Part shown: positions 25,409 through 51,711 of the stretch, in pieces | How the letters are laid out: the number at the start of each line of letters is the position of its first letter | Position numbering within the stretch: the first letter of the stretch is position 1 | IMG/VR virus record: IMGVR_UViG_3300017969_000006 | Coordinates: 35,772-99,771 of that record | Reading direction: 5' to 3' (one strand) | DNA: 64,000 nucleotides | DNA from: a virus | Notes under the pieces: model-generated | Told to the model about the DNA's origin: nothing | Seen by the model: only the letters and a program-made list of their open reading frames with translations | Databases searched by the model: none | Translations under genes and position numbers: made by a program

Positions 25409-25485
25409 CCCTTTATTTTGCTCGTATTAGTTGCATTACGTCAACTACGCTTCGTTTATTATATTTAGTGTCGAAGGAGCGAAAA

Positions 25486-27168
25486 ATGCCCACTAACGAA
25501 CTTACCGATCTCGAAATCAAAGCAGCGCCAGCCGGCCAGATGACCGTAAATCAGGCAAAAGGCATCGTCGAGGCTTTCGTTGCAGGAATTGGCAACAAAG
25601 ACTCTGTGGGCGATATTTGCGCCTCGGGAGCGTTCAACGCGAGCCTTAAGCGCCGCAAGCCACGCGTGGTGTGGGGACACAACTGGAATGACCCAATCGG
25701 TAAAGTGCTTGAAATCTATGAGGTTCCGGCTACCGACCCCCGCCTTCCGGAAAAGATGAAACGTGCCGGAATCGGTGGACTTTACGCAAAAGTTCAGTTC
25801 AACCTCAACAGTGAAAAAGGACGCGAAGCGTTCGCAAATGTCCAATTTTTCGGTTTAGAGCAAGAATGGTCAATCGGATACAAAACGCTCGACGCCATTT
25901 TCGATCCCGCCAAGCAAGCGAATGTTCTCAAAGAAGTCGAACTTTACGAAGTCAGCCCAGTTCTTCATGGCGCAAACCAGTTGACGGGAACAATTTCCGT
26001 AAAAGCAGCGAAGCAGAAACTGCGCGACCCCAAGGGTGGGCTGACCGCCGCTGGGCGACGTCACTTCAACCAGACCGAAGGATCGAACCTCAAGCCGGGC
26101 GTTAAAGGTCCTGCTGATACGCCGCAAAAAATGCGTCGGAAAGGCTCGTTTCTGACTCGCTTCTTCACAAACCCATCCGGGCCAATGAAAAAGCCGGACG
26201 GCAAGCCGACTCGCCTCGCACTTTCAGCGGCTGCATGGGGCGAACCAGTTCCACAAAACCGCAGTGACGCAGCCAAACTCGCCGCAAAAGGACGTCGACT
26301 CCTTGAACGCTACGAGAATGCGAAGAAAAAAGATGCTGATTGGGACGAGGAGCAAATCGACTATACGGTCTTTGAGAACTTCTTCGCCGAGGATAACCCC
26401 GAGTTCAAAACGCTCGAAACTGACGAGGGATTCTCTATTAACGATATTGAAATCGACGAGGTCGACGAAAAGGGCCACTACATGATGCGTATGGTTCCAC
26501 GCAGAGCCCCAGAAAGCCCCCGCCGTGACATTTTCGCAGAAGGCGAAGCGCAATCCCTCAATGCGGAGAAGCGAAACGCCCTTGAAATGGAAATTGCTTC
26601 ACGAACCCAGATGCCGATCAAACTCATTGAGGCGACGGAAAACTTGGCTGTCTTTGCTAAGAGTAAGCCAGATGGTACTAAGAAGTTTTACCGCCTTCCA
26701 TACCACTGGGACACTGAAACCCAGCAATACATGTTTGGCAAGCCAGAGCGCGTCGAGCCAGCGATGATGTGGCGCCCACGGAAGCCACGCGTCGTCGTCC
26801 CATCACAAATGCCGTCAATGCCGGTTGAAGTAAAGCCTCAAGGTGAAGGGCGAGGCGAGTACAACAACCCTGTAACCGTGAAGTTTGAAGAAGATGAGAA
26901 AAGCGCAATCGATCAAATGATGGAGTGGCTTGATGAATCTGAAGATGTCGAAATGAAGGAAGATGCTGTTCGCTTCATCATCGAATGCGACATGGAAGAT
27001 GCCTTCAACGTGAAATCTGCATTCGACCCAATCTTCGATTACTACAAAGTTGACGTCGAAGTTACTGAAGATGGAATTGAAGTTCTGTCAGAGGCTTCTG
27101 ACGACTTCTTGAATGCCATTGCGGTTGCTTCCAAATCGATCTTCGGGGAGACCGAAAAAAAAGTCTGA
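25486..27168 (+). CDS. Prohead protease (HK97 family) with DUF6321-like domain, zero-frame product
   Basis: 560 residues from ATG 25486, with AAGGAG 8 bases upstream. Residues 1-~165 are the HK97/U35 protease: active-site His65 in VVWGHNWNDP and Ser129 in EWSIGYKTLD, plus SVGDICASGAF at the N-terminus. Residues ~180-275 (DPKGGLTAAGRRHFN, LKPGVKGPADTP, RRKGSFLTRFF) resemble the DUF6321-type basic domain of actinophage proteins. The rest is acidic and helical. The gene ends in a frameshift signal; most ribosomes would stop at TGA 27166-27168, a fraction would continue into ~958 more residues. It matures the capsid shell. Confidence 0.88.
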   Translation: MPTNELTDLEIKAAPAGQMTVNQAKGIVEAFVAGIGNKDSVGDICASGAFNASLKRRKPRVVWGHNWNDPIGKVLEIYEVPATDPRLPEKMKRAGIGGLYAKVQFNLNSEKGREAFANVQFFGLEQEWSIGYKTLDAIFDPAKQANVLKEVELYEVSPVLHGANQLTGTISVKAAKQKLRDPKGGLTAAGRRHFNQTEGSNLKPGVKGPADTPQKMRRKGSFLTRFFTNPSGPMKKPDGKPTRLALSAAAWGEPVPQNRSDAAKLAAKGRRLLERYENAKKKDADWDEEQIDYTVFENFFAEDNPEFKTLETDEGFSINDIEIDEVDEKGHYMMRMVPRRAPESPRRDIFAEGEAQSLNAEKRNALEMEIASRTQMPIKLIEATENLAVFAKSKPDGTKKFYRLPYHWDTETQQYMFGKPERVEPAMMWRPRKPRVVVPSQMPSMPVEVKPQGEGRGEYNNPVTVKFEEDEKSAIDQMMEWLDESEDVEMKEDAVRFIIECDMEDAFNVKSAFDPIFDYYKVDVEVTEDGIEVLSEASDDFLNAIAVASKSIFGETEKKV

Positions 27169-34700: not shown

Positions 34701-37700
34701 TGCGGCGATTGTCGAAGAAATTCGGCAACGTGGAGCAAACCCATTCCGCGTAACCGACAGAGATATCGAACGCATCTGGGGCTCTGTAAGACCCGGTGAA
34801 CGTCCACCATTCACCCGTGCCCAAGCAGAAGAGGCTTACGGACGTGCGCTCGAAACTATCGAAGATCTCCGTGGCCGACCAACAACTGGGCGATTTGGTC
34901 GAGCATTGGAAGCAACTGATGAAGTCAGAGAATTCCTAGAGACCGCCCGCCAAAGCGAAATCGGTGCGCGTATTGAACGCGCTGTAATGGAGTACCACAA
35001 CGGTTTCGATTCACGCCCACGATACCGGACCGACATGGACGGCCTTCAGAGCATCATTGACACAGGGGACTCACGTGGCCTCATCCCGCCACGCGGTTCT
35101 CAGTGGGATCCGTTCCTTGATGCTGAAGATGCCATGCAAGGGTTCACTCCAGATGATGGAATTCGTCCACTCTTCGGCAATCTGCTGCACGCTGACGATG
35201 ACAGCGCCATTCAACGCTACTTGGACAACATCAAGGGTTACGCCGCTATTCGAGACTCGGAGTTCTTCGATCGGGTAACTGAGTCGCCACTCGGCAAAGT
35301 CCTAACCGGAGATGTCGAATTGGTTCTTCGTGCCGATGTCGCTCGCCGAACCGGATACGGAATTGGTGATGCACGAGGTCAAATCGCGTTTGGCGTCATG
35401 ATTCACGACGACGATCCAGCGCGTGTCCGTCAAGCACTCCTGACACGTCGATTTGGCGGACCTATTGACGACACCGCAACCACAGGCGCAGCATTGGACT
35501 TCTTGCACGCAGACCTGACCGGTGACTACTCGGGAATCAGAACCCCGATGGACACCCTTTCCCTTGACGCTGGCCTCAGCGTAGACGTCAGAGATCGAAC
35601 TATCCGTGGACGAGTAGACGCAGATGCATTTATCGCAGGCGGATTCAACGGCGAAGAACTAGAAAATGTTCGAATCGGTAGTGCTTCACTGAACTACAAA
35701 CGTCAATTCCTAGCACCAGCAGAAGTCGGCGCGAACAACAGCGAACTCCGCAAGAGGCTCGGTCTTGCCGGTCTCTCTAAAACTGAAGTAGACACCGTGT
35801 TTGAGTTCGCTCAAAGCGGCCGCCTCGACCTCGAATCAGCCGACTTGCTACGAATGAACAAAGCAGCACGGGAACAGGCAGACCGTTTCGCAAGAGTCGG
35901 TATCAGCACAACTTTCACCAACGATAAGGGCATTAACGTCCTTGATGGTGCTTCGGTATCGGTAGAAACACCGGGTATTGGCCGCATCGAAGCATCCAAG
36001 CGTGCCGACGACATCCTGCGTGTACGCCTTGAGGGAGAAATCGCCGAGCGCGCAGAAGACATTGCCAAACAAATTCGATCTGGTGTTGGTCTTCGTTCAG
36101 CAACCTCTTCACCACGCCGAGACGCCCCAATCAATGTCGTTGACCCCTTTAGTGATGACCCATTTGGCGGTGTGGTTGACCGAGCACGGACTGTTGTCAC
36201 CGACCGTATTCGCGACGAAGTAAGCGAAAGAGCAACGGCGCTTGCAACAGAGAAGATTGGCCGTCTGGGAGCCAAACTTTCCCGTCGTCAAGTTCAGAAT
36301 CGCGGCATACAAAGAGTTGGCATGAACGTTCTTCAATCGGACCGAGCAGAAAATTTGCTTCGTCGGGCCGGACTTGAGACAGACGACATTGAGAACATCC
36401 GCTTTGTCGGTGAACTTGCTGCTGCCTTCGGAACTTCCGGACCGGCCGGCGTCGGATTGGTTCTCGCTCGACGCGGAAGCCGTGAAGGAATCGATTTTGG
36501 TGTTCGCAAAGCACGCGAACAAGGTTGGATCACCGACAGCCAAGCCAACGCAATCTTGCGCGCCGCAGACACCGTTGCACCAGAAGGACTTCCTGATGCG
36601 GTGACGAACGCAATTGGTGAACAAGCGCAGCGAGCCATCAACTCAGACGCAGCCGATCGTGCTAGGGAAATCGCAAGCGCCGCCGCTGAACGTGTGCGTG
36701 AACTTGACCTTGGTGATCGTGTTGGGGACATTTTTGATAGGGGTCGCACGGCCGATACTCCTGCTCTTCCGTCCACACCCAACGACCCATTCTCCGCGAA
36801 TGATCCGTTCGCACCTATCTCCGGTGGAGGGCTTCGCTCTCAAACTGGGCGTTCGATTCTCGCACAGTCGAAACCAATTTTTGACATTGAATCTGATGAC
36901 GACATCAACAAATTGGCCGACGAACTGCGAACCCTTACGCAACCAGATTCAAGAAACCCTAATAACCACGTGAGCATCATGGCAGAAGAGTTGCGAGACA
37001 TTATTGGCGATATAGAAACTCCTGATCTTCTCACTGGTGAACCACGCAAATATGCGGAAGACATCACTGACAGCATTCCTTCATATATTGCCAACAGAGT
37101 ACGCGAGCAACTGGGCGATATGCCGCTTTCTGACGAACAGAAGCAACGCGTTGGGGAACTGCTCGCGGCATCCGAGCAGATGCGAGAACTTGACGCCTTC
37201 CGGTTTGACATCATGCAACGGAGGACACCTGATCAAGTCACTGATACGAATGACCCATTTGGTGGTCCACCACCAAGAAGGCCAAGCGCACCACCACCAA
37301 GAAGGCCTACAGCAAACGACCCATTCTCTGACGGTCCAGAAGAAGTTCCAGAAACGCCGCCTCAGTACACCGCTGCGCAAGCACGCGAACGTCTCGATGA
37401 GATCCTTGCAGATTCAACGATTTTTACAACCGAATTCAATCAGCGCCAATCAACTATCACCGAGCGAGAAAATCGTCGATCCGAAGTGGAAACACGCAGG
37501 CAAGAACTTGAGTCAGTAATCAATGAACTGGCTAGATACGAAATGGTTACCGCTGACCGTCTGACAGAAGAAATTGATAGAACTGCACCAGTTGGAAAAG
37601 CCACAACCACACAAGCGGCCAAAATCGATCCCAGACAACACGCCCCACAGCAAGGCATTGTTCGTGACCCCAAAGAGGTCCAGCGAATCGCAGAACAGAC

Positions 37701-38742
37701 TGTCGCTCCCGCTGCCGACCTCACCTTGCCAGAACACCGTGATGAGTTGCGCACGCTCCTGCTCGAGAACGAAAACATCACCAAATGGCTTGGCCTCATT
37801 CAGGAACGAACCCCCATCATCAAGGAGGGGATCGGCAACTGGATGAATGATGTTTACGCCCTTAACCCACCCCCCGCAGACTGGGACGTCAATGAAATAT
37901 GGCGAGAGTCCGGAGGCTTGGTCGGAGCGCGACTTACCGAAGCGCTCATTAGAAGCAGAGGTTATGACGCGCCAGCAATGACTGTAAATGAAGCAGAAAT
38001 GGATCTTCTTCTAGCCACCCGTGGACTTATGCCGATCTCACGTGGTGCTACCAACAACATGCAACGCGCAACCCTTGATTCGTCAGAAGAATTCCTCACC
38101 GGAGGCGGCATTGACGGTGCTGGGCTCTATTTCGCTATCGAAGGAACAAGCCCCACCCGACTGGGTGGCGGACATCACGAGGCCGACGGCTACATCGAAG
38201 GCGTATCAGATGCTTCTGTTATCCGTGGCGCGCTAAACCCCGGCGCGAAAGTAATGCAAATTTCTGCTGCAACACGAATGGCTGAAGAATACCGGTTGGA
38301 AACTCTAGGTGAGGATGTTGGTGCAGGAGGGGAAGCGAACCCTCTGATCGCCCTGAGGCGCAGCCTCGTGAACGACCCATCTCAGGCCGATTTGTTGGAA
38401 GCGTTAGATTCGGCGATTGTTGATTCAACCGACCCAGCAAAGTTTGACGGAGGATCAGTTAACGGACGGACAGTAATTCCGTTGCTCTTGGGCTATGACG
38501 CTACAATTTCCGAGACACGAGATGATAACCGCGTTGTCATTCTGAACCGCTCGGCAGCAATCCTGCAAGACACAACGTATACGGGTCAAGAGTGGGCTGA
38601 GGCAAAACCATGGGATCGCCTCTTGGAACGCGCCAAAGTGCTTGGTGCCGACATGGACATTCCTATCGGCCTATCACCGGAAGAAAGAACACAGTGGGTT
38701 CTTGAGAAGTTGGAAACAGAATTTGGAGCGATCAGTGGATAG
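31714..38742 (+). CDS. Giant multi-domain protein: HELGH peptidase motif and C-terminal ADP-ribosyltransferase-like domain
   Basis: 2342 residues. Residues ~165-240 carry KGLGRKLNQ and the Cys motif CPPGTPAANQFTDEFGTNCF. The zinc motif HELGH is at ~562-566, with a later EGMTELRALRDMG helix as possible third ligand. Residues ~880-940 (FVLPKGTKGIEK then EIPGGEYEVRSV) recall the end of an ART fold. Residues ~1105-1230 (RPLFGNLLHADDD, VELVLRADVARRTGYGIGD) resemble DUF3626-like proteins. Two GLRS motifs lie at ~1460 and ~1706; repeated NDPF motifs and a PPPRRP repeat occupy ~1690-1880. The C-terminus (~2100-2290: MPISRGAT, GAGLYFAIEGT, VIRGALNPGAKVMQI, GYDATISE, VVILNRSAAILQD) looks like a toxin-type ADP-ribosyltransferase. 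Probably injected with DNA; that is inference. Confidence 0.72.
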   Translation: MANIRAERVILSDRVNTYRRDYETIGALFRIKSAVLASQESLDPNISVKALNQDLPKKDKKDSEKRTSGTGVEEQLPELRYAPNGKRGRGDVLKLHVTPRDLTTGNEPNFGWIPAPEKKSEEETRKQMRELLDWKKRRPKVRVRSFRADPRTGQRVEDSGVDVEVKGLGRKLNQIVPGGNLSSRAAGAVGVLTDANGKFRCPPGTPAANQFTDEFGTNCFKPALSSRRLIGAMRRWFDKYVELGEQIQLLESMGIYGVGPDDLTPQYRQNIRNMVRAAGSVAPKERVQEVQSRMDTAIDALQTRLGTTRDTTDNADMWTALATLAADEWQDLDFSGIFSGPEGWGSWNKNMLADPKGRTPQAAADHTADVRSQYISMFDNWVSDGPMRQRYRDGDPEARALIDEMVTRHLAAERGFLKAILQEYQESPEIMRQVKTLGRTQIRDGEAFDDYWRVDGECSPAGFHPRDGFALNIDFNAAAVALKPAIQNGLANYTSDGRILLFDIDPNDVSRSFTSEAEQWAEIGNLMQNTVDLERWRNVYAQDLSTARHGSIEAKGVHIAKHELGHARQYQFIKNAVLDTHAKTGSTYLVNSTSGQIERLDVSPDQWTNQQWVDVVTSQVQRLIPEKYLADGFPPTSLETFEGTMLHIMAGRYYQDEVQNFFNLNDDAKRGQSALMMLEGMTELRALRDMGVLMDPELDRLVSWMDDVDPRTPERPDPQGVIWPPPTSSAMQVFQPDPNGTWDTISRTPIEDPNPFIPDLGGKQEHIDAINSRISSLNRSLPDAERDLFDPRSEVVEIQNGNDVVEQLRSGKTALDIENLTVKKQQIIDREVLAEDIAATGEIDDVGDLEVGDAIRFKGFKTLDRRMDADQEQDLSADEGKRKVNFVLPKGTKGIEKQNPANNEPDQVEIPGGEYEVRSVNPDGTVTLVPRSQDDADTVARRLIDSLDGSSDIDDVRDAVRTVQKRAQKYVQKKEKIRRATRSSDPATAQRMERRNAAIVEEIRQRGANPFRVTDRDIERIWGSVRPGERPPFTRAQAEEAYGRALETIEDLRGRPTTGRFGRALEATDEVREFLETARQSEIGARIERAVMEYHNGFDSRPRYRTDMDGLQSIIDTGDSRGLIPPRGSQWDPFLDAEDAMQGFTPDDGIRPLFGNLLHADDDSAIQRYLDNIKGYAAIRDSEFFDRVTESPLGKVLTGDVELVLRADVARRTGYGIGDARGQIAFGVMIHDDDPARVRQALLTRRFGGPIDDTATTGAALDFLHADLTGDYSGIRTPMDTLSLDAGLSVDVRDRTIRGRVDADAFIAGGFNGEELENVRIGSASLNYKRQFLAPAEVGANNSELRKRLGLAGLSKTEVDTVFEFAQSGRLDLESADLLRMNKAAREQADRFARVGISTTFTNDKGINVLDGASVSVETPGIGRIEASKRADDILRVRLEGEIAERAEDIAKQIRSGVGLRSATSSPRRDAPINVVDPFSDDPFGGVVDRARTVVTDRIRDEVSERATALATEKIGRLGAKLSRRQVQNRGIQRVGMNVLQSDRAENLLRRAGLETDDIENIRFVGELAAAFGTSGPAGVGLVLARRGSREGIDFGVRKAREQGWITDSQANAILRAADTVAPEGLPDAVTNAIGEQAQRAINSDAADRAREIASAAAERVRELDLGDRVGDIFDRGRTADTPALPSTPNDPFSANDPFAPISGGGLRSQTGRSILAQSKPIFDIESDDDINKLADELRTLTQPDSRNPNNHVSIMAEELRDIIGDIETPDLLTGEPRKYAEDITDSIPSYIANRVREQLGDMPLSDEQKQRVGELLAASEQMRELDAFRFDIMQRRTPDQVTDTNDPFGGPPPRRPSAPPPRRPTANDPFSDGPEEVPETPPQYTAAQARERLDEILADSTIFTTEFNQRQSTITERENRRSEVETRRQELESVINELARYEMVTADRLTEEIDRTAPVGKATTTQAAKIDPRQHAPQQGIVRDPKEVQRIAEQTVAPAADLTLPEHRDELRTLLLENENITKWLGLIQERTPIIKEGIGNWMNDVYALNPPPADWDVNEIWRESGGLVGARLTEALIRSRGYDAPAMTVNEAEMDLLLATRGLMPISRGATNNMQRATLDSSEEFLTGGGIDGAGLYFAIEGTSPTRLGGGHHEADGYIEGVSDASVIRGALNPGAKVMQISAATRMAEEYRLETLGEDVGAGGEANPLIALRRSLVNDPSQADLLEALDSAIVDSTDPAKFDGGSVNGRTVIPLLLGYDATISETRDDNRVVILNRSAAILQDTTYTGQEWAEAKPWDRLLERAKVLGADMDIPIGLSPEERTQWVLEKLETEFGAISG

Positions 38743-38959
38743 CAAACGAGTCACCACCGGAGATGACGGCATCCGTTTTCAGCCTAGCCAGACGTACTTG
38801 AAGTACATGGAAACCAGCGCTGTTCGTGAACTGCTTGATAAAGACCCCGACGTTGAACCGTACCTCCAGCAGATCTTTACTGCGCTGCCACAAGTCAGTG
38901 AAGTAATCGATCTTTACAAAAACACCTACATCATGGCGCTGCGTGAGGTTGAAGAATGA
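38735..38959 (+). CDS. Small protein following the giant ART-like gene
   Basis: 74 residues from the GTG at 38735, which overlaps the end of the giant gene by 8 bases; TGGAGCG lies just upstream. Helical (SAVRELLDKDPDVEPYLQQI). Its stop overlaps the next start (ATGA). Small genes after giant toxin-like genes recur here, so an immunity or chaperone role is possible. No homologue is known to me. Confidence 0.55.
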   Translation: MDSKRVTTGDDGIRFQPSQTYLKYMETSAVRELLDKDPDVEPYLQQIFTALPQVSEVIDLYKNTYIMALREVEE

Positions 38960-41445
38960 GAGCAGTACTAATTGGTCAAGTTAGAAAAAACCCGGTCTAC
39001 TACGACCTAGACGGAAAAGAAACTGACGCGTTCGTTGTCGATAAAGAAAACAACGTTGTTCCGGTCAACGTTATCTCCCTCATTGGCAAAGGCCTCATAG
39101 AACCCATCAACGACTCCGACTTCACTGACTTCTTTTGGAATGGTTCCAAAGAGAGCAGCAAAAGATGGGAAAACATTTTTATCCATCGCGTTCAAGATGT
39201 GCCAGACAAACTGTTGCGTGGAGTTCAAATGCTTACCACTCCACCAAAAAAGAAGAATCCGGCGCGATCGAAAGCCGTTGAGGAAAAAGCGCTGAGAGCA
39301 GATGCCTACAAAGCGCTTGTTGAGAGCGAGCAGCACGAGAAAGCACTGGGTCGAAGTCTAAATCGATTCGGTGGAAGGGCTACTGCGGGTGTTCGTGGAT
39401 TCGTTCGTAATGCCCGATGGGACCCTGACGCATTGGATGCTGACGGTGATGGTTGGGTTCAGGAAGGAACACAGTTCGCTCGTCGGATAACCGGTGCTAA
39501 TGTGACGAAACCGAATAAGCCTTCTCCACCCGAAGTCAACGTTGAGCACTATCGCGCGCTTAGAAGTCAACAAAGGCGCAATTATCAGAACTATCTAAGC
39601 GGATCGATCAGTGAACGACTTGCAAAACGTAAAGCGCGATTCTACATCGACCGCATGGAGAAAGTTGACCAAATGATCGAAAGCCGTTTCTCTGACGGCA
39701 AGCGAATCAAGACCGTTGGCGATATGCGTAAAGCGTTTGAACGTGCTCATCCGGGTTTCATTACAGGTGACAGCACTGCCGAATACTTGAATAGCGCAGA
39801 TCCTGATGAGGAACTAAAAGACACGGTTAGGGAACATGGCTACATGTTTCTTTTGGCACTTATGTCGAATCCGGACCTAACGAAAGCAAACTGGAAATTC
39901 ACTAAAGTTGATCCATCCGAAGAGTTTTCTGGCGCCGCTGCTTTCAAAGGGCCGAACAAAATCGACAGACTTGGAAAAGCACGAGATTTGCCTCGAAACC
40001 GAAAAATGCTTATCGAGATCTCCTACAAAGATGAATTTCCCGAAGCGAAATTTAGAGATGCGCAACAAATGGATGCTCGTTTACGTTTGCAACTTGAGAA
40101 CACCAAGATTATTGCGTCCATATTGAGGTCTGATTTGCCAGACGATGAGAAGCAGGAGTTTGTTCGTCGTTTTCATGCTCGCTCAACAGCATTCCACGAA
40201 ATGACACATGGAAGCATGTATTTTAAAGCGTTCACAGATTCATTGGCGTCAGTCGGTTTACAGCCTGACGAAAAAACCGACGCCGATGCGATCTTGGATG
40301 AGGTGTATACAGCAATATCAGATTTAGCACCAGAAAAAGCATCCCTTCTTGCCGATCAATTCTGGGCAGAAACTATTGCCATGCCAGTTGCATTAGTCAA
40401 CCGTGTCTTGAATTATCTTATGCTTCGTTCCAGTATGGATCCAAGAGCGAAATCAACCATGCTTGATGCGATCAATGCGGATCTCACGGATGGTCAACCC
40501 AATGCCCCTGAACCATTGCGTGTCTCAAAGAAACTCTCCGCGTTTCTTAATGACAAGCAAATCCCGAAAAATCTTGCTAAGCCAAACGATCCACAAGATA
40601 CAACCTTCGAAGAAGGTGACGCTTTATCAATCAACTCGACTATGAACATACTTGCGCATCTGGTCAACGACTTGGGTTCTGGAAATGGTTACCAGAATAG
40701 GCTTCCGTGGGCTGGACGGAAGGCAGTTAACTTTGGTAAGAGCGAAGATGACATTGCCCTGAATTGGCCGCTCCTCTTGGAACATGGAATTCCAAATACA
40801 GACCTTGATTCAGAAGATGTAAAAACATTGCTTATGGCAAATATTCGCATTGGAGAAGTAATCTCGGAAGTGCTTCAATCAGGTAATCCAGACAGCATCA
40901 GGAATTTTGCTGCTATTGCGGCAAGTAACCAAACACAAATTGCTCCCGCTGTTTGGTTGGGCCTTACTGGGAATATCGCAAATCAAAGCATGCGTGAAGC
41001 ATACGTTCAATCCAGTATTCGAGGGGGAGTATCGCAACTTTGGGAAAGCGTTAAAGCAAGCGGCACGGACCGTGATCGAGGAAGAATCATTGACACCCTC
41101 GCCTTACTCTTGGGCGTATGGGACGACCTGACCCCACAGCAACGCGATCTTGCTAAGAACTATGCCGCAATGTCGGGTGGCGGTCTTTATGCTTCGTACG
41201 CTGGATATATCACTAACTTCACGCAGTTGGGTCGAGTTTTCGATGGACTCAACTATGAACTGCTCGCCGAACTTGGCCCCTTAGCCCTATTCGGCAATGT
41301 GGCAGAAATGGCGGATGAACAGGCTGGCGGGATTCGCGAACTTGACCCATCTGAACCAACATATGAAGCATTGCAGAAATTGATTTCGTGGCTGTGGCCC
41401 GAACTCCCCTTCGCGTTAAACGGTAAAGAGAAGGCAAAGTCATGA
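38956..41445 (+). CDS. Large protein with HEMTH zinc-peptidase motif and EF-hand-like module
   Basis: 829 residues. The N-terminal ~100 residues are a small alpha/beta domain. KALGRSLNRFGG then WDPDALDADGDGWVQEGT (~155-172) is the shared module, followed by ALRSQQRR (~201-208). The peptidase motif HEMTH is at residues 414-418, within AFHEMTHGSMYFKAF; an EVYTAISDLAPEKASLLADQ helix and FWAETIAMP follow, offering a third zinc ligand. The C-terminal half is helical. It belongs with the neighbouring giant proteins by its shared module. The substrate is unknown. Confidence 0.72.
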   Translation: MRAVLIGQVRKNPVYYDLDGKETDAFVVDKENNVVPVNVISLIGKGLIEPINDSDFTDFFWNGSKESSKRWENIFIHRVQDVPDKLLRGVQMLTTPPKKKNPARSKAVEEKALRADAYKALVESEQHEKALGRSLNRFGGRATAGVRGFVRNARWDPDALDADGDGWVQEGTQFARRITGANVTKPNKPSPPEVNVEHYRALRSQQRRNYQNYLSGSISERLAKRKARFYIDRMEKVDQMIESRFSDGKRIKTVGDMRKAFERAHPGFITGDSTAEYLNSADPDEELKDTVREHGYMFLLALMSNPDLTKANWKFTKVDPSEEFSGAAAFKGPNKIDRLGKARDLPRNRKMLIEISYKDEFPEAKFRDAQQMDARLRLQLENTKIIASILRSDLPDDEKQEFVRRFHARSTAFHEMTHGSMYFKAFTDSLASVGLQPDEKTDADAILDEVYTAISDLAPEKASLLADQFWAETIAMPVALVNRVLNYLMLRSSMDPRAKSTMLDAINADLTDGQPNAPEPLRVSKKLSAFLNDKQIPKNLAKPNDPQDTTFEEGDALSINSTMNILAHLVNDLGSGNGYQNRLPWAGRKAVNFGKSEDDIALNWPLLLEHGIPNTDLDSEDVKTLLMANIRIGEVISEVLQSGNPDSIRNFAAIAASNQTQIAPAVWLGLTGNIANQSMREAYVQSSIRGGVSQLWESVKASGTDRDRGRIIDTLALLLGVWDDLTPQQRDLAKNYAAMSGGGLYASYAGYITNFTQLGRVFDGLNYELLAELGPLALFGNVAEMADEQAGGIRELDPSEPTYEALQKLISWLWPELPFALNGKEKAKS

Positions 41446-42449: not shown

Positions 42450-44404
42450 TGGCCACTTCATACATTTACGAAAAAGAAGTTGATTGTGAAGCGTGTCCAA
42501 GTGTTCGCGTGAAAAGAACGATCATCGCCAAACTCGAACAGAAAGAAAACGTTCGTTACCTCCGGCAAACTCGCGCAAATCGTGAAGAACTCGTGCAATT
42601 TAAAGCACTTTCTAAACGAAACGGGAATATTCGCCAGTATGACGTCAAACGAGTTGGCGCAATCGGGTCAAGTAGCCGTCTGGGGCAAGCAGCCCAAGCA
42701 ATCGGAACCATTGCCACCCCCGGAAATATTTCCCCTTACCGCAGCCCAATCAGGTCAGGAATTGCTCGTGCCCTGACTCCCGGCAAACCCGGTGGTATGC
42801 GTGGTGTACGTCGCCGGGGACGAACCTCTAGGTGTCCAGAAGGATTCCAGTACGGTGGTCGTTTTACTGACAATGAATTCTCGACATGTGGGCAACAGTT
42901 GTTCGATGTTCCATCTCCCCTTGGCGCAACAATTCGCGCAATTCGTGAGCAGCAAAGAGCCGCCGCTCGAGGACCAGCCCAACCGCGAACTGCCGCTACG
43001 CCAATTGCCTCACAAGGAACAGTGAATCGTGACCGTGCCGTTCGTGCGGCACAAATTCCGCGCGTGTCAGCCACCACGAAGAAAACCGATCGCGATAAGA
43101 GCACCGCTGAAGTAATCAAAACGATGGGCAAGCCAGACATCAACGCCACTCGCCTCGTCCGACGTGACGGATATGTTCTCGAGCCAGTCGTGACACCCCG
43201 AGTTCTTCGAACCATCCCAGACAACCGAGACATGGTTGATGCAACATTTATTCTGACTGCCAAGAATCGCGCAGACCTTGGCGACCAAGAACTTGGGCTT
43301 CTTTCAAATACAGGCGTAACCAACGTCACGTATGTTTTTCAAGACGGATCTTACGTTCAGATTCGAAAAGTTCGTTCATTGACCCGTGGTGAGCGACGCA
43401 AGTTGGGTCGCACCGTGAACGCGGCGATGAAAGTTGATAACGAAAGTGACCCTCTTGCACGCCTGAAATACGTTTCAGATGAGACCGGTGATGGCATCGA
43501 TCTCGTTGAGAGCCTACGAGGCGGTCGCACGATTCAAAAAATCCTTTCCGGGAAAGGCAAAGTTTCGAGATCGAAAGATTCAGAAACTGTCGATCCGCTT
43601 GGAGACGCCGCAAAAACAGTTCGAGACGGAGGAGACATCTCCTCTATCCGCCCAACAATCCTGCAAGAAGCGATTGGTAAAACGAATCTCTTCAAAAAGA
43701 CAGGTACTGACAAGTACAAGGCTGCCGATGGCAGGGTTTACACACTGCGCACTTCGGGCAAGTCAGGCGAACACATTACGCAAGCCATGTCATCCGCAGT
43801 CCAAGACCACCTCGGACTCAACGGTGTTGATATCGCATTTGTCGGTAAGGGATCATCGAAGCGCAAGTACTTGTCCATGACCCCGGAATCCGAGATCGTC
43901 GACGGTGCGCTTTCCAAAGAGAAGTCATTCAATGACCTCGATGTGGACGACGTGGCAAAACTTTTCGTATCTGACATGGTTATGGATATAGAAAGTCGCG
44001 CCAGCAACACGGTTGCGATCTTCGACAAGGGGGATGAGTCGTCGCTCATTGCGACATTTGCCCAAAGTGAACTCGTGGATCTTTCGGATGCCAAAATTCG
44101 TGAACGTACCCAGAAAAAGATTCGCGACATGAAAGCATTGCAACCCGACAGCATTTACAGTAAATACTATAAGAGTTTGAAGGCTGAACAGCGCCGACAA
44201 ATGCAAGAAGAGATCGACAAACTCATTGCGAAAGCACGCGAATTTAACTTCACCAAATTCCGCGACAAACTCTACGCAGATGGAGAACTCTCCTCAGCGG
44301 AGAAGACACACTTGAACATTATTGCTAAAATTATTAAGACACGTATTGATGTACTTACCGACAGTAGGGAAGTTTTGATGCGTGTTCTCGGAGGTCAGAA
44401 GTGA
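42449..44404 (+). CDS. Cys-motif protein with possible kinase-like C-terminus
   Basis: 651 residues. The N-terminal part has CEACPSVRVKR and a basic Ala/Arg-rich linker. RCPEGFQYGGRFTDNEFSTC (~127-146) matches the Cys motif of the 2342-residue protein. A second basic linker follows. Residues ~405-560 (LFKKTGTDKYKAADGRVYTL, GEHITQAMSSAVQDHLGL, VDDVAKLFVSDMVMDIESRA) have the spacing of a protein-kinase or HipA-like fold: a glycine-poor N-lobe, then a D-x-x-x-x-x-R helix. That assignment is weak. It overlaps both neighbours by a base or four. Confidence 0.6.
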   Translation: MATSYIYEKEVDCEACPSVRVKRTIIAKLEQKENVRYLRQTRANREELVQFKALSKRNGNIRQYDVKRVGAIGSSSRLGQAAQAIGTIATPGNISPYRSPIRSGIARALTPGKPGGMRGVRRRGRTSRCPEGFQYGGRFTDNEFSTCGQQLFDVPSPLGATIRAIREQQRAAARGPAQPRTAATPIASQGTVNRDRAVRAAQIPRVSATTKKTDRDKSTAEVIKTMGKPDINATRLVRRDGYVLEPVVTPRVLRTIPDNRDMVDATFILTAKNRADLGDQELGLLSNTGVTNVTYVFQDGSYVQIRKVRSLTRGERRKLGRTVNAAMKVDNESDPLARLKYVSDETGDGIDLVESLRGGRTIQKILSGKGKVSRSKDSETVDPLGDAAKTVRDGGDISSIRPTILQEAIGKTNLFKKTGTDKYKAADGRVYTLRTSGKSGEHITQAMSSAVQDHLGLNGVDIAFVGKGSSKRKYLSMTPESEIVDGALSKEKSFNDLDVDDVAKLFVSDMVMDIESRASNTVAIFDKGDESSLIATFAQSELVDLSDAKIRERTQKKIRDMKALQPDSIYSKYYKSLKAEQRRQMQEEIDKLIAKAREFNFTKFRDKLYADGELSSAEKTHLNIIAKIIKTRIDVLTDSREVLMRVLGGQK

Positions 44405-47400
44405 AACAGTACGCTTTAGTAAAGGACATGGTTAACGGCTCGTCTTACTATGGCGTTGTCATCCGTGAAAATGGGCTTACCGAATGCAAAGGTGTTTCAG
44501 GTGTAGGCGAAAAGTGGGCGGAATCTTACAACAACGCCGAAACTAAGTCCCTTGACGATGGTCTTCCCTATGGTGTGAAAATCGGAGAATTCCATGCGTT
44601 GACTCAAAGCGAGGAAATCCTTGTCGAACACATGCTTGACGGCAACACTGTTCGTTTCCCAGACAGAACTCAACTGAAGCAACTGTCTTTCCACAAAACA
44701 GACGCTAATTCAAGCCTTCCTGCCGTTTCAAACACGCCGCTTTCAGCATTTTTGATGGATGACCTGCAAACCGCAGTTGACTACAAGATTCGCGCTTTCC
44801 TCTCCGACTCTGCGAGAGCGTCAGTGATGCTGAAGTCACGTCTTGAAAGATACGGCATCAGCGACACAACTGTCGGCTTCAAGTCTGCAAGCAATAACAG
44901 TTTCCTGAATGAAGACATGTCCAGTGTGGCTCGTGGACATGGCAATCTTCGACGTGCGCTGTTGGATATCAGAGACGCAAAATCAACCTTCCTAGAAAAT
45001 CATCCGGGATATCAGGTTGGAATCGAGGAAAAAGCAATCGGGCGTAGCCTCGGTCGAGGTGCGCGCATTGGCAGACGTGCGGCTCGCGCCTTCAAGCCAT
45101 ACGACCCGAACGCAATCGATGGCGACATGGACGGAATTGTTCAAGAAGGAACACCTTGGGAACGTCCAGCAGTCAGAGTTGGTGGACGTGGCGTTCGCTT
45201 AACCCCAACGCAGCAGCGGGCAAGAAGCGAAATTGCTCCAGATGTCGGGATGCGTAGCCGGACGGGTGATGGAGAAAGCATTCAGGACAGGCTTACAGCG
45301 GCGCGTAACAGTCGACAGCAAAAACTTGCCGATCGCATGCGTGAAATGGGTTTCGACGATGACAATCAAAAAGAAATCAATGACTGGCTGAGAACCTTTA
45401 ACCCGGAAGATTTCGAATATACCGACATTGATGATCTCGAGATTGAAGGTCTGACCTCGCGCCGTGGCTCATCCAGCCCTACCGGCAGCATTTTTGGTCA
45501 GCGCCGTTACTCAAGCGAGGATTGGATCGAAGGCCAACTCGATGAGGGGCCGCTTGCTGGTTCTTTCTTTGAACTTCGAACCGCACGCGATTACACCGAA
45601 AGCAACTTTAATGATCCGGGTGAAACGCTCGGTGGTAATGATGAGTTGACTGTTTACACGCCTGATGGTGTCGTTCTCAGTTTCGAAAACGAAACATGGG
45701 AAGACTCTTTGGACCTTATCAATGTCCGCGCACCGGGCGGTGATGGCCTTCGGTCAAGAAGTCGACGCGGGGATGACGAGGACTACCCTCGTATCGACCC
45801 CGATCTCATCAACAGGTTGCGAAATGAACGATTTGTTCCCGAGACAAGTCGTTCTGGTCGTGCACGTCAAAACCGCATCATTAACACCCCGAACGCTGAT
45901 GGTGGTCCACCACGTCGTGCAGTCCGGGAGCGCTCTGGCCGAGTTGTCCCAGAACCACCGGCACGTGATCGGAGCGGACTGCGCAGCAGGACCGGTGACA
46001 CCGCCAACAGAAATGCCGAATTGACCGGTGTAGGAACAACCGTCCCCAAAGCCATGAAGGCAAACAGGAAGTTCTTCCAAACACTTGCTGCCAACGGATT
46101 CGTTTGGGACGACAAGCCTGACACCAGTGGCAGAGTTAGGATTTTCCTACCCGACCGCATGTCCGACTGGACACTTGACCAGCCCGACAGCGTCCGTAAT
46201 CAGTGGGGCAAATTCAAACCAGCCCGCGAAAATCAGGCAGCCGGCTTCATTCACGTACACCCCGGCAAGGACACGCCACAACGTCCTGAAAACATGGCGA
46301 AACGTTTCCTGCGCACCATTTTTGGCGACACCGCATGGGACGACATGGAAGCAAACGCCAAGAAACCCGGCGATAAGCGCGGCACTGGTCGAATCGGAGT
46401 AATTCCTTCAACTAGCACCGGCGCGACTGGATTGCGTTCCGCAACGTCTCGTGCTCGCACTCGTACTGCCTCAACGGAAAGAGTAGCAACGCCCACCACA
46501 ACCGGACGAAGCCTCCGCTCGGGCCAACTGCGCAAACTTGGAAAGCCCGGTGTCGCAAGAGGTGAAAGCGACGGAAAAATCTGGGAACAATTGGATGACA
46601 ACCAACGCGATTTGTTCAAGCAATTTGCACAGGCGCGTGAAGTTCAGTTGATGCGGAATCTCACTCAGGATGCGAGAATGCGAAAGTTCCGCAACAAGAT
46701 GATAGATGATGGCGATTTCGACGAAATCGACGAGGACGGCAACGTTGTGCGGAATTACAACAAACCGCTTGCTCGAAACATCATCCCATTGGCGCAACGA
46801 GAAATTGACGATCTGCTTCGCGATGAAAAAATCACGGAGGAAACCCACGTAAAGTGGCAGAAAACTTTGGACGACATCAAGACGTTGCGCAACATGAAGG
46901 AAAGCGACAACTACGAAGCGCTGGAGCACCTGCATCCGGCAAGTCGTGCCAAGATCATCAAGGACGCTCGGGGTGAAGATTCAAGCATTCCGGGTGTTCG
47001 TGCACTGAAGGCTGATGGTCCGTCAACGTTCTTCGGTGATCAAGCCCGTACAGCCAGTGGTCGTAGCGCCGGTAAGAATCGGAAACCGAAAAGGAAGCGG
47101 CCTTTCGCTGACCGCATTATCACACCGAATGTTGAACGACTACAGCGTCGGGCGGCTCGTCGTCAACGAGCACAAGCGATTCGTCGGGGAGGCCTTGTTC
47201 GCGGTCAAGAGGCTGACGTTTCTGCAACGCAAAATGCTCGACGCAAACTGGCTCGTCAACTTCGTCGAGCACGACGCAGATTTAAAGGAGAACGCGACGA
47301 AAGAGCGATCCGTAAAATCTTTGACGAAAAGAAGAAAAATCACCCATTGGCCCGTACAAAAGAAGGCGCTCCAGAAGTCAATGACAAGTACGTTGATTAC

Positions 47401-48246
47401 CTTGCCTTCGTCGGATCAAATATTGATAAACGTCAAAAAGGTGAACTCTCATCAGACGTTCGCGACAGCGTCCTTCGAGACCTTTGGCAAAACGGAGGAT
47501 TCAACCAACGCCCCGAACTCATTTCTGCGGACGAGATGCAGGCCCTCAGCGATGCGGGTTGGCAGGTTCTACACCGAGGAGTTGACAGACTGGGAACTCA
47601 AGCACAAGCAAACACAGATTCGTACAAGGAAGACTTGGACCGTTTCACGCCCGGCGAAACTAATCTACGAGCACATGGCGTTGGCGAATACTGGGCTGCT
47701 CCGGGGAGTGGGCACTGGGGAGGTTACGGTTCTGGCATGCTTGCCTTCATTGACCCAGAAGGCAAAAGGATCCAGAGGAATAAACTCAAGGGATTATCAG
47801 ATGAATCTTGGCCAGCAATGAAGGAAATCCAAGATCTCATCGATGAACTAGGTGATGGAGTTGCACAAGGTGAAGACCCTGCAAACTTCGTTGATCAAGT
47901 AATGGAACGACTCCGCTCCAATGGTCTCGAAGGTCTCCTCGAAAAAGATAATGAAATCATCCAAGTGGCTCGCCAATTGCTCGACAGGTACAAGGGCATG
48001 ACCCCGAATGACACAAAGCGTGAAAATACGTGGAATGCCATTCAATATATGCTCGGCCAATCGAGGCAGGCGCAATGGTCAGGCGGAGAGGGATATTGGG
48101 CTCCAATCCTCGGCTACGACTACGTCACCTCAAACGAGGGCGTGTTCCTTGTTCACAACCGAGGCAGTGTTGCTGTGCTTGACGTCGCCGAACCGCTCAG
48201 CGGCGGAGCAGCAAAGACAATTGTAGATGGCCTCAATGAAGGGTAA
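44401..48246 (+). CDS. Giant modular protein with GLRS linkers and C-terminal ADP-ribosyltransferase-like domain
   Basis: 1281 residues. The N-terminal ~110 residues form a small domain (ALVKDMVNGSSYYGVVIREN). KAIGRSLGRG then YDPNAIDGDMDGIVQEGT (~235-252) is the shared module. G(L/M)RS motifs at ~283, ~449, ~526 and ~677 separate four linker-joined segments. One segment (~540-675) looks like a small folded domain (TVPKAMKANRKFFQTLAAN, GFIHVHPGKDTPQRPENM). A very basic region (~880-960, Arg-rich) precedes the C-terminus. The end (~1053-1275: WQVLHRGVDR, HGVGEYWAAPGSGHWGGY, AFIDPEGK, ILGYDYVTS, FLVHNRGSVAVLD) matches toxin-type ADP-ribosyltransferases. A small gene follows directly. Confidence 0.72.
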   Translation: MKQYALVKDMVNGSSYYGVVIRENGLTECKGVSGVGEKWAESYNNAETKSLDDGLPYGVKIGEFHALTQSEEILVEHMLDGNTVRFPDRTQLKQLSFHKTDANSSLPAVSNTPLSAFLMDDLQTAVDYKIRAFLSDSARASVMLKSRLERYGISDTTVGFKSASNNSFLNEDMSSVARGHGNLRRALLDIRDAKSTFLENHPGYQVGIEEKAIGRSLGRGARIGRRAARAFKPYDPNAIDGDMDGIVQEGTPWERPAVRVGGRGVRLTPTQQRARSEIAPDVGMRSRTGDGESIQDRLTAARNSRQQKLADRMREMGFDDDNQKEINDWLRTFNPEDFEYTDIDDLEIEGLTSRRGSSSPTGSIFGQRRYSSEDWIEGQLDEGPLAGSFFELRTARDYTESNFNDPGETLGGNDELTVYTPDGVVLSFENETWEDSLDLINVRAPGGDGLRSRSRRGDDEDYPRIDPDLINRLRNERFVPETSRSGRARQNRIINTPNADGGPPRRAVRERSGRVVPEPPARDRSGLRSRTGDTANRNAELTGVGTTVPKAMKANRKFFQTLAANGFVWDDKPDTSGRVRIFLPDRMSDWTLDQPDSVRNQWGKFKPARENQAAGFIHVHPGKDTPQRPENMAKRFLRTIFGDTAWDDMEANAKKPGDKRGTGRIGVIPSTSTGATGLRSATSRARTRTASTERVATPTTTGRSLRSGQLRKLGKPGVARGESDGKIWEQLDDNQRDLFKQFAQAREVQLMRNLTQDARMRKFRNKMIDDGDFDEIDEDGNVVRNYNKPLARNIIPLAQREIDDLLRDEKITEETHVKWQKTLDDIKTLRNMKESDNYEALEHLHPASRAKIIKDARGEDSSIPGVRALKADGPSTFFGDQARTASGRSAGKNRKPKRKRPFADRIITPNVERLQRRAARRQRAQAIRRGGLVRGQEADVSATQNARRKLARQLRRARRRFKGERDERAIRKIFDEKKKNHPLARTKEGAPEVNDKYVDYLAFVGSNIDKRQKGELSSDVRDSVLRDLWQNGGFNQRPELISADEMQALSDAGWQVLHRGVDRLGTQAQANTDSYKEDLDRFTPGETNLRAHGVGEYWAAPGSGHWGGYGSGMLAFIDPEGKRIQRNKLKGLSDESWPAMKEIQDLIDELGDGVAQGEDPANFVDQVMERLRSNGLEGLLEKDNEIIQVARQLLDRYKGMTPNDTKRENTWNAIQYMLGQSRQAQWSGGEGYWAPILGYDYVTSNEGVFLVHNRGSVAVLDVAEPLSGGAAKTIVDGLNEG

Positions 48247-48255
48247 ACTATTGAC

Positions 48256-48639
48256 ATGAGTGATACAACTAACGAATGGGGCGAAGATCTGCAAGAGGTA
48301 GAGCGTCGACAGCAATTCACCGACCGGTTTAACGAGTTGATGGACTTGACCGACTACCCGCCATTTTCAATCAATCTTGAAAAACACAACGAGTATCGCG
48401 AAGAAGTCATGGCCTACAGCGTGAAAATCTCTGAACAAATTCGTGAAAGCGACGCAATCGAAGATCGACCATTCTCAACACTTATGGCGAAATGGGAAGA
48501 TGACCTTGACGAGGCCAAACTCTACAAACAGCGTTATGGTAGGGATTTTGTTGGCGCCCAGAAAGCGGCCGCAAAGAATGACGGCATCTCCATGCGTGAC
48601 GTAAAGCCCATCGGACCACCATCAGCATATAAAGACTGA
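48256..48639 (+). CDS. Small acidic protein following the ART-like gene
   Basis: 127 residues, acidic, helical (DRFNELMDLTDYPPFSINLE, EEVMAYSVKISEQIRESD), 9 bases after the 1281-residue gene and overlapping the zeta-like gene. It is the third small gene after a giant one; an immunity or chaperone role is conceivable. No known domain. Confidence 0.55.
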   Translation: MSDTTNEWGEDLQEVERRQQFTDRFNELMDLTDYPPFSINLEKHNEYREEVMAYSVKISEQIRESDAIEDRPFSTLMAKWEDDLDEAKLYKQRYGRDFVGAQKAAAKNDGISMRDVKPIGPPSAYKD

Positions 48640-50243
48640 TGAATAAAGGGGCCGCCGGGAAAGCGCGAGCACTCCGACGCGCTAAAGAATTGGGATGCAC
48701 TGGTGCACACAAACATCCTGACGGCGGCTGGATGGCATGCTCCACCCATGAAGAGTACGAGCGTTTAGAAGCCGAAGAAGAGTCCGAGCAAGAAGAAAAA
48801 TCCGTTCTTTCTCGTGTTCGTGAATTCCAAAGTGTTCGCGAACGAAAAGGCAAACGCCGCAAAAAGAAAAATAAAAAGAACTGGGAAAAACTCGGTGAAC
48901 GTGGCGTTGTTTCAATCGACACAATCACTGGCGGCGGGCTCGTTTCGGGCGCTGTCGCTGGAAAAGTTGCATCAGCAATCCCCCGTGACGGAGAAGAAGA
49001 TGTTTTTACCGACATCAACTCAGCACGTCGAAGGGCGCGACAACTGGGATGTATCGGAGTTGCACGACGTCGTTCCACTGGCGGTCAAGTCGTATGGACT
49101 CCGTGTTCAAACATCACCGACTATGCGCGACGCACAGGAAGCACCGCCCTTGGCCGTCGATACATAGAACGAATGCGACGGCAAGAAGCGCGTCGAATCG
49201 TTGAAGAAGAACGCAAGCGCGGTCGCTACAAGCGTAAAATTTCCCTATTTGAAGAACTTCACGGGAAAGCGCTCGGCAGGAAAATCCGTCAGGCTGCTGC
49301 TGTTTTCGATGCCAATGCCACGGATGGTGACAACGACGGGATGGTGCAAGATGGCACCGCTTTTGCTAGACCAGCAATCCCCAAGGGTGTCGGTAAGTCG
49401 AAAACATGGAAAGACCTCATTGAGATGGAGCCCGGTTGGATGTCCGAGGCACCAAAAAACATTCAAAGAGCAGCGTCGCAGGAAGCGAGAGAAAAACACC
49501 GGAAATTACGTGTTTCTGGGCTTCGTTCGCAGCAAACCGGGTCCGGTGGTCGTGCTCAAGTGAGTCGAATCATGCAACAAGTCATGCCAGAGCATCGTGG
49601 AAAAGAGGATAGAACCCTCTATTTCATTGGCGGAACAACTGGTGCGGGGAAGTCAACTCTCACCCGAAATGACAGATTTGGGATACCGGGGCCTGATGCT
49701 GCTGCACATATTGACCCTGATGAGATTAAGGCCGGTTTGGTTGGCTGGGATAATGGCCGTGGTGCTGGTGCCGTTCACGATTCTTCACGACGAGTTACCG
49801 ATCACGCCATGAAAGCAGCGGCTGAGGAAAAAACCGATATGGTCGTTCAGGGTACTGGCAAGAGGACTGAGCACCTTCAAATGGCTCGTCAAAATGGATA
49901 TGCAACTGTTGGGCACTTTGTTCATATTCCCGGTGACGAAGCAGATCGCCGGATTGTTCAGCGAAATGCTGACAATAGGCAGAATGGTGGAGCGATAATC
50001 CCGGAATGGTTTGGGAGCCAGATTGGTCGTGAACTACAGCCGATTGTTCCTCGTCAAATTACATCCGGATTATTTGATGAATTCTTCTTGTGGGATAACA
50101 GCGGAGACACACCCGTTCTGATTGCTAAGCGCACCAAAGACGGAAATTACAACATCAATGATATTGATGCTTTCAATGATTTCTTTAGTCCGACCGGAGC
50201 CGAGTACGTCAAGAACTACTGGGATAGTAAGTCAAGTAGTTAA
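48639..50243 (+). CDS. Zeta-toxin-like kinase fused to the shared EF-hand-like module
   Basis: 534 residues. Two copies of an A-x-x-x-A-x-x-L-G-C-x-G...W-x-x-C-S repeat lie at ~10-45 and ~128-165. A basic linker follows. KALGRKIRQ then FDANATDGDNDGMVQDGT (~223-240) is the shared module; SGLRSQQTG is at ~293-301. From ~327 the zeta kinase: Walker A FIGGTTGAGKSTL, HIDPDEIKAGLV, HDSSRRVTDHAMKAA, and GHFVHIPGDEADRRIVQRN. Zeta toxins phosphorylate UDP-N-acetylglucosamine and block wall synthesis. No epsilon-type antitoxin is obvious. It is the last gene before the major capsid protein. Confidence 0.8.
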   Translation: MNKGAAGKARALRRAKELGCTGAHKHPDGGWMACSTHEEYERLEAEEESEQEEKSVLSRVREFQSVRERKGKRRKKKNKKNWEKLGERGVVSIDTITGGGLVSGAVAGKVASAIPRDGEEDVFTDINSARRRARQLGCIGVARRRSTGGQVVWTPCSNITDYARRTGSTALGRRYIERMRRQEARRIVEEERKRGRYKRKISLFEELHGKALGRKIRQAAAVFDANATDGDNDGMVQDGTAFARPAIPKGVGKSKTWKDLIEMEPGWMSEAPKNIQRAASQEAREKHRKLRVSGLRSQQTGSGGRAQVSRIMQQVMPEHRGKEDRTLYFIGGTTGAGKSTLTRNDRFGIPGPDAAAHIDPDEIKAGLVGWDNGRGAGAVHDSSRRVTDHAMKAAAEEKTDMVVQGTGKRTEHLQMARQNGYATVGHFVHIPGDEADRRIVQRNADNRQNGGAIIPEWFGSQIGRELQPIVPRQITSGLFDEFFLWDNSGDTPVLIAKRTKDGNYNINDIDAFNDFFSPTGAEYVKNYWDSKSSS

Positions 50244-50394: not shown

Positions 50395-51711
50395 ATGGCA
50401 GATTCAAGCCGCATTACGGAGTTGCAGACCGCGCTCCAGAGCAAGATGGACGAGAACAAGGCCATTGCCGACTCGTTCAAAATTGAGGACGGCGTCGTCG
50501 TCGTCGAAAATGACCAGAAGTCCGCGTTCGACGCGAACATGAAGGACATCAAGGAGATCAAGTCACTGATCGCCGGCCTTCAGGACTTCAGCGAAGTTCA
50601 GTCGTGGAGTGCAGAGTCGGTTGAGTCCGTCGCTGCTGCCGCTGCTGCTGGCGAGGGCCTCCGCGAGGCTCGCGCTCAGTTCAAGTCGATCGGTGAGGAA
50701 TTCCTCGCTTCCGACGAGTTCAAGAGCCTTCAGGGTGGCCGTAACGGCGCGAACATGCCGTCGCCATTCCAGTACTCTGGCTCGCTGACCACCAGCGGTT
50801 ACGGCGTTAAGGACATCTACTCGGCGATGCCTTCCGGCACCCCGGGTCAGTTTGGTTCGATCCAGCGCGATCCGATTGTGATCCCGCCGCAGCGCACCAA
50901 GCGCGTCCGCGACCTGTTCCCGACCCGCACCACTTCGGCTGCGATCATCGAGTACTTCCGCATGACCGGATTCACCAACAACGCGGCGACCGTCGCTGAG
51001 CGTGGTGGCACCCCCGAGACGTTCGCTGCGAAGCCGCAGTCGACGATGACCTTTGAGGGCGCTCAGGCTCCCGTTCGCACCATCGCTCACTGGGAGGCCG
51101 CTCACCGTAACGTCCTCGCCGACGAGCCGCAGTTGCGTTCGATCATCGACAACGAGTTGATGTACGGCCTCCGTCTTCAGGAAGACGCTCAGATCCTCTC
51201 TGGTGACGGAACTGGTGAGAACCTCACTGGTGTTCTCAACACCACTGGTATCCAGACCTACGACTGGTCCGACGGTGCGCTCAGCCCGGTTCCGGACACG
51301 AAGGCTGACGCGATTCGTCGCGCCGCCACGCTTTCGTTCCTCGCCTACTACGAGCCGACCGGCGTCGTTCTTCACCCGAACGACTGGGAGGACATCGAGT
51401 TGACGAAGGACAGCAACGGTCAGTACCTCGTCGCGGTTTCGGTCGCGATGGGTGGCGAGCCGCGCGTCTGGCGTCTCCCGGTCGTCGAGACCCCCGCTAT
51501 CACCGAGGGCACCGCTCTCGTCGGTGCGTTCGGTACCGGCGCCCAGTTGTACGACCGCGAGCAGGCGAACATCCGGATCTCCGAGCAGCACTCGGACTTC
51601 TTCGTTCGCAACGCGATCGTGGTGCTCGCCGAGCAGCGTCTGGCCCTCGCGGTCAAGCGTCCGGAGGCCTTCGTGAAGGTTTCCTTCGACGGCGCTCCCG
51701 AGGCTCCCTGA
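50395..51711 (+). CDS. Major capsid protein (HK97 fold)
   Basis: 438 residues. The N-terminal ~105 residues form the delta domain: a coiled coil (ITELQTALQSKMDENKAIAD) and an Ala-rich stretch, probably removed by the prohead protease. The mature part has PQRTKRVRDLFPTRTTSAAIIEYF, EGAQAPVRTIAHWEAAHRN and a spine helix region, then the A-domain with VVLHPNDWEDIELTKDSNGQ and the closing strand FFVRNAIVVLAEQRLALAVKRPEAFVKV, the classic HK97 end. Codons are more G+C-rich than in the flanking genes, as expected for strong expression. A strong terminator follows. Confidence 0.95.
   Translation: MADSSRITELQTALQSKMDENKAIADSFKIEDGVVVVENDQKSAFDANMKDIKEIKSLIAGLQDFSEVQSWSAESVESVAAAAAAGEGLREARAQFKSIGEEFLASDEFKSLQGGRNGANMPSPFQYSGSLTTSGYGVKDIYSAMPSGTPGQFGSIQRDPIVIPPQRTKRVRDLFPTRTTSAAIIEYFRMTGFTNNAATVAERGGTPETFAAKPQSTMTFEGAQAPVRTIAHWEAAHRNVLADEPQLRSIIDNELMYGLRLQEDAQILSGDGTGENLTGVLNTTGIQTYDWSDGALSPVPDTKADAIRRAATLSFLAYYEPTGVVLHPNDWEDIELTKDSNGQYLVAVSVAMGGEPRVWRLPVVETPAITEGTALVGAFGTGAQLYDREQANIRISEQHSDFFVRNAIVVLAEQRLALAVKRPEAFVKVSFDGAPEAP

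Follow-up and report, generated by a model that had tools for sequence, protein, structure and literature searches.

The window, the whole stretch of 64,000 nucleotides analyzed here, belongs to a virus record of 99.8 kb from an uncultured phage. In its head operon, the portal (at 23390), an S78 prohead protease (at 25468), and several large proteins all lie upstream of a gene encoding a 534-aa protein that joins an N-terminal module to a zeta-fold kinase, and the major capsid gene follows directly. The main features, all on the plus strand, are:

25468..27168, plus strand: S78 prohead protease (PF04586, E 4e-12), the candidate enzyme for the GLRS sites
44401..48246, plus strand: protein of 1281 aa that bears a tag of its own and four G[LM]RS sites, together with a conserved C-terminal domain without an assigned fold
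48256..48639, plus strand: small acidic gene, 127 aa, directly upstream of the module-kinase gene
48639..50243, plus strand: module-kinase protein gene, an ORF of 534 aa
48660..48749, plus strand: first DUF3721 repeat, aa 8-37 (PF12518, E 7e-10, two stretches)
49008..49118, plus strand: second DUF3721-like repeat, aa about 124-160 with approximate edges (PF12518, two stretches; conserved GC...WxPC pattern in the alignment)
49305..49376, plus strand: D-rich tag FDANATDGDNDGMVQDGTAFARPA, resembling an EF-hand loop by eye only and kept in the alignment of relatives
49518..49529, plus strand: GLRS linker motif, bordering the folded kinase on its N-terminal side; the model's first helix begins about five residues later
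49536..50240, plus strand: zeta-fold kinase domain (Pfam, alignments, AlphaFold2 model)
49629-49658, plus strand: Walker A motif GGTTGAGKST of the kinase
50395..51711, plus strand: major capsid protein (PF05065, E 1e-46)

The original prediction implied a gene start at 49600. The true start is at 48639, where it overlaps the stop codon of the upstream gene (TGATG), and the stretch that had been noted is the C-terminal part of the 534-aa ORF, within which all the strings quoted in that prediction lie in frame. The position directly upstream of the capsid gene is shared by the homologues of the module-kinase gene. The capsid protein itself has about 50% identity to its counterparts in actinobacterial phages, and its relatives are spread over MAGs of several phyla. 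The same phage record also carries a carbamoyltransferase gene (62076-63518).

Fusion of the kinase to a tag of the phage's own had also been proposed and was borne out, since versions of the tag occur in the window ORFs 38956-41445 and 44401-48246. All 7 members of the tag-bearing set match phrog_7924, a family without an assigned function, weakly; the tag consensus found no match in the phage collection, and the N-terminal module matched none of 50,697 phage records at the limit used. A scan with the module identified 80 viral loci, of which a simple identity test left 52 as non-redundant. Module and kinase are fused in 29 of these 52, and no kinase was detected in the other 23, one of which (L204) is cut off by the end of its contig. 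In nearly all kinase-less loci, the module is a gene of its own that directly precedes the capsid gene and mostly encodes 193-256 aa. This stand-alone arrangement, found in about 20 distinct related viral loci, identifies the module as a head-operon protein in its own right that either gained the kinase or lost it; three changes of the kinase label are required on the capsid tree. Kinase-bearing homologues measure 534 to about 3270 aa, and pentapeptide repeats, ArdC-N, and MPTase-PolyVal occur in two of the longest. In the kinase-gene homologues L005/L106 and L012/L121, G[LM][RSA]S motifs lie between these domains.

The prediction of a zeta-type kinase is confirmed at the level of the fold by Pfam, a profile search, and an AlphaFold2 model that matches zeta and PezT. 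The Zeta_toxin match (PF06414) at aa 323-449 (E 7e-9, 35.8 bits vs a cut-off of 22.3) is the single match to this family in the whole record. Searching the PDB with the whole protein by phmmer gave nothing useful, and a profile search was needed: a profile built from the phage relatives found zeta 1gvn (E 1e-18), PezT (1.6e-9), and AvrRxo1 (2e-7). The AlphaFold2 model of the kinase, based on 58 sequences, has a pLDDT of 95 and a pTM of 0.92; a single-sequence model of the full protein (pLDDT 47) was left out of the analysis. Structure comparison of the kinase model placed zeta (1gvn_B) best, with a Z of 17.6 and an rmsd of 2.8 over 205 residues, followed by PezT (2p5t_B, Z 17.4) and then by AvrRxo1 (Z 14.9) and polynucleotide kinases (Z about 14). 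We consider the zeta-fold assignment secure. Neither a scan of bacterial genomes for the kinase clade nor PADLOC with the kinase protein returned a match. Among relatives, pairwise dN/dS of the kinase is about 0.05-0.12 in three pairs, indicating purifying selection, and the domain is therefore maintained.

The active site tells a more mixed story. In the zeta toxin of S. pyogenes, toxicity was lost when D67, E116, R158, or R171 was mutated to alanine, with E116A and R171A each sufficient on its own (PMC6356619). We used these four essential residues outside the P-loop as a reference set (PMC6356619), with equivalences that rest on sequence alignment rather than on structural superposition of the active site. 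K338 aligns with the Walker A lysine K46, D361 with the base aspartate D67, and R442 with R158, all of them kept; the equivalent of T118 is also kept, and that of E100 is Asp. At the position of E116, Glu is replaced by Gln (Q404), and at that of R171, Arg is replaced by Ala (A452). Loss of the catalytic Asp or Arg had been named as the result that would speak against the original prediction, and it is seen in half of the set: D67 and R158 stand, whereas E116 and R171 do not. In related phages, the acid at 116 is usually changed to Gln or Thr and R171 is kept in only some, whereas Asp at 116 and, in most cases, Arg at 171 are found in kinases from outside the clade; the change is therefore specific to the clade. 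The equivalents of the P-loop Lys, D67, and R158 are present in nearly all kinases compared. The kinases of two loci, L225 and L227, are altered further, with T118 replaced by Tyr and the H..S motif by H..A. Judged from these alignments, the domain is a zeta-fold kinase with a remodelled site rather than a proven UDP-GlcNAc kinase.

A GLRSQQTG linker had been noted before the kinase; it begins at aa 294 (49518), and GLRS recurs in the surrounding block. The proteins encoded from portal to capsid contain 11 copies of G[LM][RSA]S, vs about 1.0 expected from shuffles, and one copy occurs elsewhere in the window. With no pattern chosen beforehand, GLRS is the commonest tetrapeptide of this block (8 copies vs 0.27 expected). 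Similarly, no tetrapeptide is more frequent than GMRS among 76 large proteins of relatives, where 78 copies are spread over 16 loci, and two proteins of L005 contain 12 copies vs 0.35 expected and 7 vs 0.39 expected. The motif is at background level in kinase-less loci, and several kinase-bearing loci lack GLRS/GMRS. It stands shortly before the kinase in the window and in L109, L116, L120, L121, and L125. Its codons vary freely over much of the synonymous range, including TCN and AGY serines, which points to selection on the peptide.

Several further observations concern these sites. Repeated G[LM]RS sites occur in other large proteins of the block, at 27315-30038 (four), 31714-38742 (two), and 44401-48246 (four), and a tape-measure-like ORF on the minus strand (4305-8453) has one GMRSQTSG. 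In the relatives L027-L034 (about 3001-7700), the S78 protease and a G[LM]RS-bearing protein are joined in a single ORF of about 1550-1600 aa, in some cases with the tag. By eye, the proteins at 31714-38742 and 38956-41445 contain HExxH-type motifs (HELGH, HEMTH) and are possible metallopeptidases; Pfam gave no peptidase match for either. The N-terminal junction of the capsid protein was considered as an independent check on cleavage sites, but a conserved GANMx[SA] fell on HK97 K103/S104 in one alignment and not in a larger one, and it was not used.

The residue changes bear directly on what the kinase might do. The original prediction held that it inactivates UDP-GlcNAc; in this classical mechanism, the injected kinase would phosphorylate UDP-GlcNAc (or UDP-MurNAc), block wall synthesis, and weaken the wall or exclude rivals. 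Zeta and PezT are the nearest solved structures, and the residues kept at K46, D67, T118, and R158, with Asp at E100, agree with it. Against it stand the Gln at 116 and the Ala at 171, positions at which either alanine mutant kills S. pyogenes zeta toxicity (PMC6356619), and the confinement of these changes to the clade. The mechanism is possible but weakened, and we rate it as unlikely: because E116 and R171 are both replaced, UDP-GlcNAc phosphorylation is at most putative and perhaps unlikely. With two catalytic residues changed, the kinase probably does not use UDP-GlcNAc as its streptococcal counterpart does, and a related nucleotide-sugar, NAD, or some other nucleotide is no less likely as the substrate. 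A tentative possibility is an enzyme with a changed substrate in the host, resembling a 3'-NAD kinase or a polynucleotide kinase, or serving counter-defence through action on a signalling nucleotide. AvrRxo1 and the polynucleotide kinases are the next structural neighbours, and the conserved H..S motif is common to AvrRxo1 and the kinase in the profile alignment, although the likeness to zeta exceeds that to NAD or polynucleotide kinases. The domain might instead be a pseudo-kinase that serves the head or connector as a non-catalytic component, given the loss of E116 and R171, the more degraded kinases of L225 and L227, and the constant location of the domain in the head operon. We regard this as improbable, considering that nearly all kinases compared retain the equivalents of the P-loop Lys, D67, and R158, that the tested pairs are under purifying selection, and that many related phages have no kinase domain.

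Two further questions concern the neighbouring gene and the linker. As the original prediction stated, no epsilon-like gene was found near the kinase. The 127-aa acidic protein could nevertheless be its antitoxin: its gene lies directly upstream with overlapping start and stop codons, is conserved beside the kinase gene, and is present in nearly all kinase loci (a lenient search added L205 and L207) and in no intact kinase-less one. However, the small gene tracks the C-terminal domain of the preceding gene wherever both could be seen, and L225 and L227, the only module-kinase loci without it, also lack that domain. This evidence amounts to only about three independent changes on the capsid tree, and the L225 and L227 kinases look degraded. 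An antitoxin role thus seems quite improbable, and we lean toward the acidic protein serving the preceding 1281-aa protein, as its distribution suggests. The protein at 48256-48639 is a candidate immunity or partner protein of the C-terminal domain in question; by eye, this domain had appeared ADP-ribosyltransferase-like, which neither PDB nor Pfam searches support. As for GLRS, we consider it probably a protease or linker code; a protease site would be its simplest explanation, with the S78 prohead protease as first candidate, and the zincin-like peptidases seen in relatives could use the code instead. It is doubtful that GLRS/GMRS, instead of being a processing site, is a repeat used in recombination or simply a flexible linker. 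The sites do lie in linkers between swappable domains, but the freely varying codons argue against a conserved DNA repeat, and one would not expect a simple linker to preserve a single tetrapeptide.

The reading we prefer, with a probability of roughly 0.5, is that of a virion-packaged and proteolytically released kinase effector of the polyvalent/MuF-zeta kind, acting on an altered or uncertain substrate. The DUF3721 and D-rich-tag module would be a head-associated protein of this phage group, with the zeta-family kinase fused to it as cargo. During head assembly, the module would carry the protein into the prohead, where the GLRS linker would be cut by a virion protease, for which the phage's own S78 prohead protease is the likeliest candidate; the freed kinase would then enter the host with the DNA and phosphorylate a small molecule there. 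The kinase is probably packed in the particle and injected. The prediction of virion presence is based on the head-operon position and on a distant MuF-zeta protein seen in virions, that of cyanophage P-SS2. P-SS2 ORF030 (L019 10708-15207) has 1500 aa and contains MuF and Zeta_toxin domains. Table 2 of the 2009 paper gives it 96.5 average peptides in mass spectrometry of purified virions, a figure for the whole protein, and labels it major capsid protein (PMC2784084); in GenBank it is named minor head protein. Kinship with polyvalent proteins is also apparent in the arrangement, with module and kinase before the capsid gene and with longer homologues that add ArdC-N and MPTase-PolyVal, as is typical of polyvalent proteins that are transferred.

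A more speculative extension, which we put forward only tentatively, is that injected effectors are made as polyproteins on a head-protein module and cut by a capsid protease at a dedicated G-[LM]-R-S code, with the kinase as an interchangeable cargo that has acquired a new substrate. If true, this would be a phage counterpart of viral polyprotein processing. These findings offer a testable anatomy of how several enzymes may be loaded into a head, consisting of a stand-alone module, a recurring linker with a possible role as cleavage code, and cargo domains that vary from one relative to another. Should the linker prove to be a protease site, the limits of each cargo could be deduced from the sequences of many uncultured phages. 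The remodelled active site is also a warning against reading every Zeta_toxin match as a wall-synthesis poison.

The T4 Alt and internal proteins are packaged, matured by the prohead protease, and injected. The scheme predicted here from sequence follows the same logic of packaging, protease trimming, and injection as these and the SPN3US ejection proteins. The known prohead-protease motifs of the T4 and SPN3US systems are of the L/I-x-E or S-x-E type, in contrast to the candidate G-[LM]-R-S. Epsilon/zeta and PezAT (1gvn, 2p5t) share with the window kinase the fold, the P-loop, and the equivalents of D67 and R158; here, no epsilon was found, the site carries E116Q and R171A, and the kinase is encoded within a phage head gene. 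AvrRxo1, a zeta-fold 3'-NAD kinase (PMC5087710), shares the fold and the H..S motif but differs as a secreted effector of a plant pathogen with its own partner protein and about 15% identity to the window kinase. The MuF-zeta fusions reported by Iyer et al. in 2017, for which wall weakening was suggested (PMC5512222), likewise place a zeta kinase on a head-operon protein, as in P-SS2 ORF030, so the idea of wall weakening by such kinases is already published. The module-kinase protein has no PF04233 match up to E 1, whereas MuF was found in P-SS2; in place of MuF, it has the DUF3721/D-rich-tag module and G[LM]RS linkers. The P-SS2 kinase has Asp at 116 and Arg at 171, both replaced in the window kinase, and multi-domain relatives with ArdC-N and MPTase-PolyVal are common to both.
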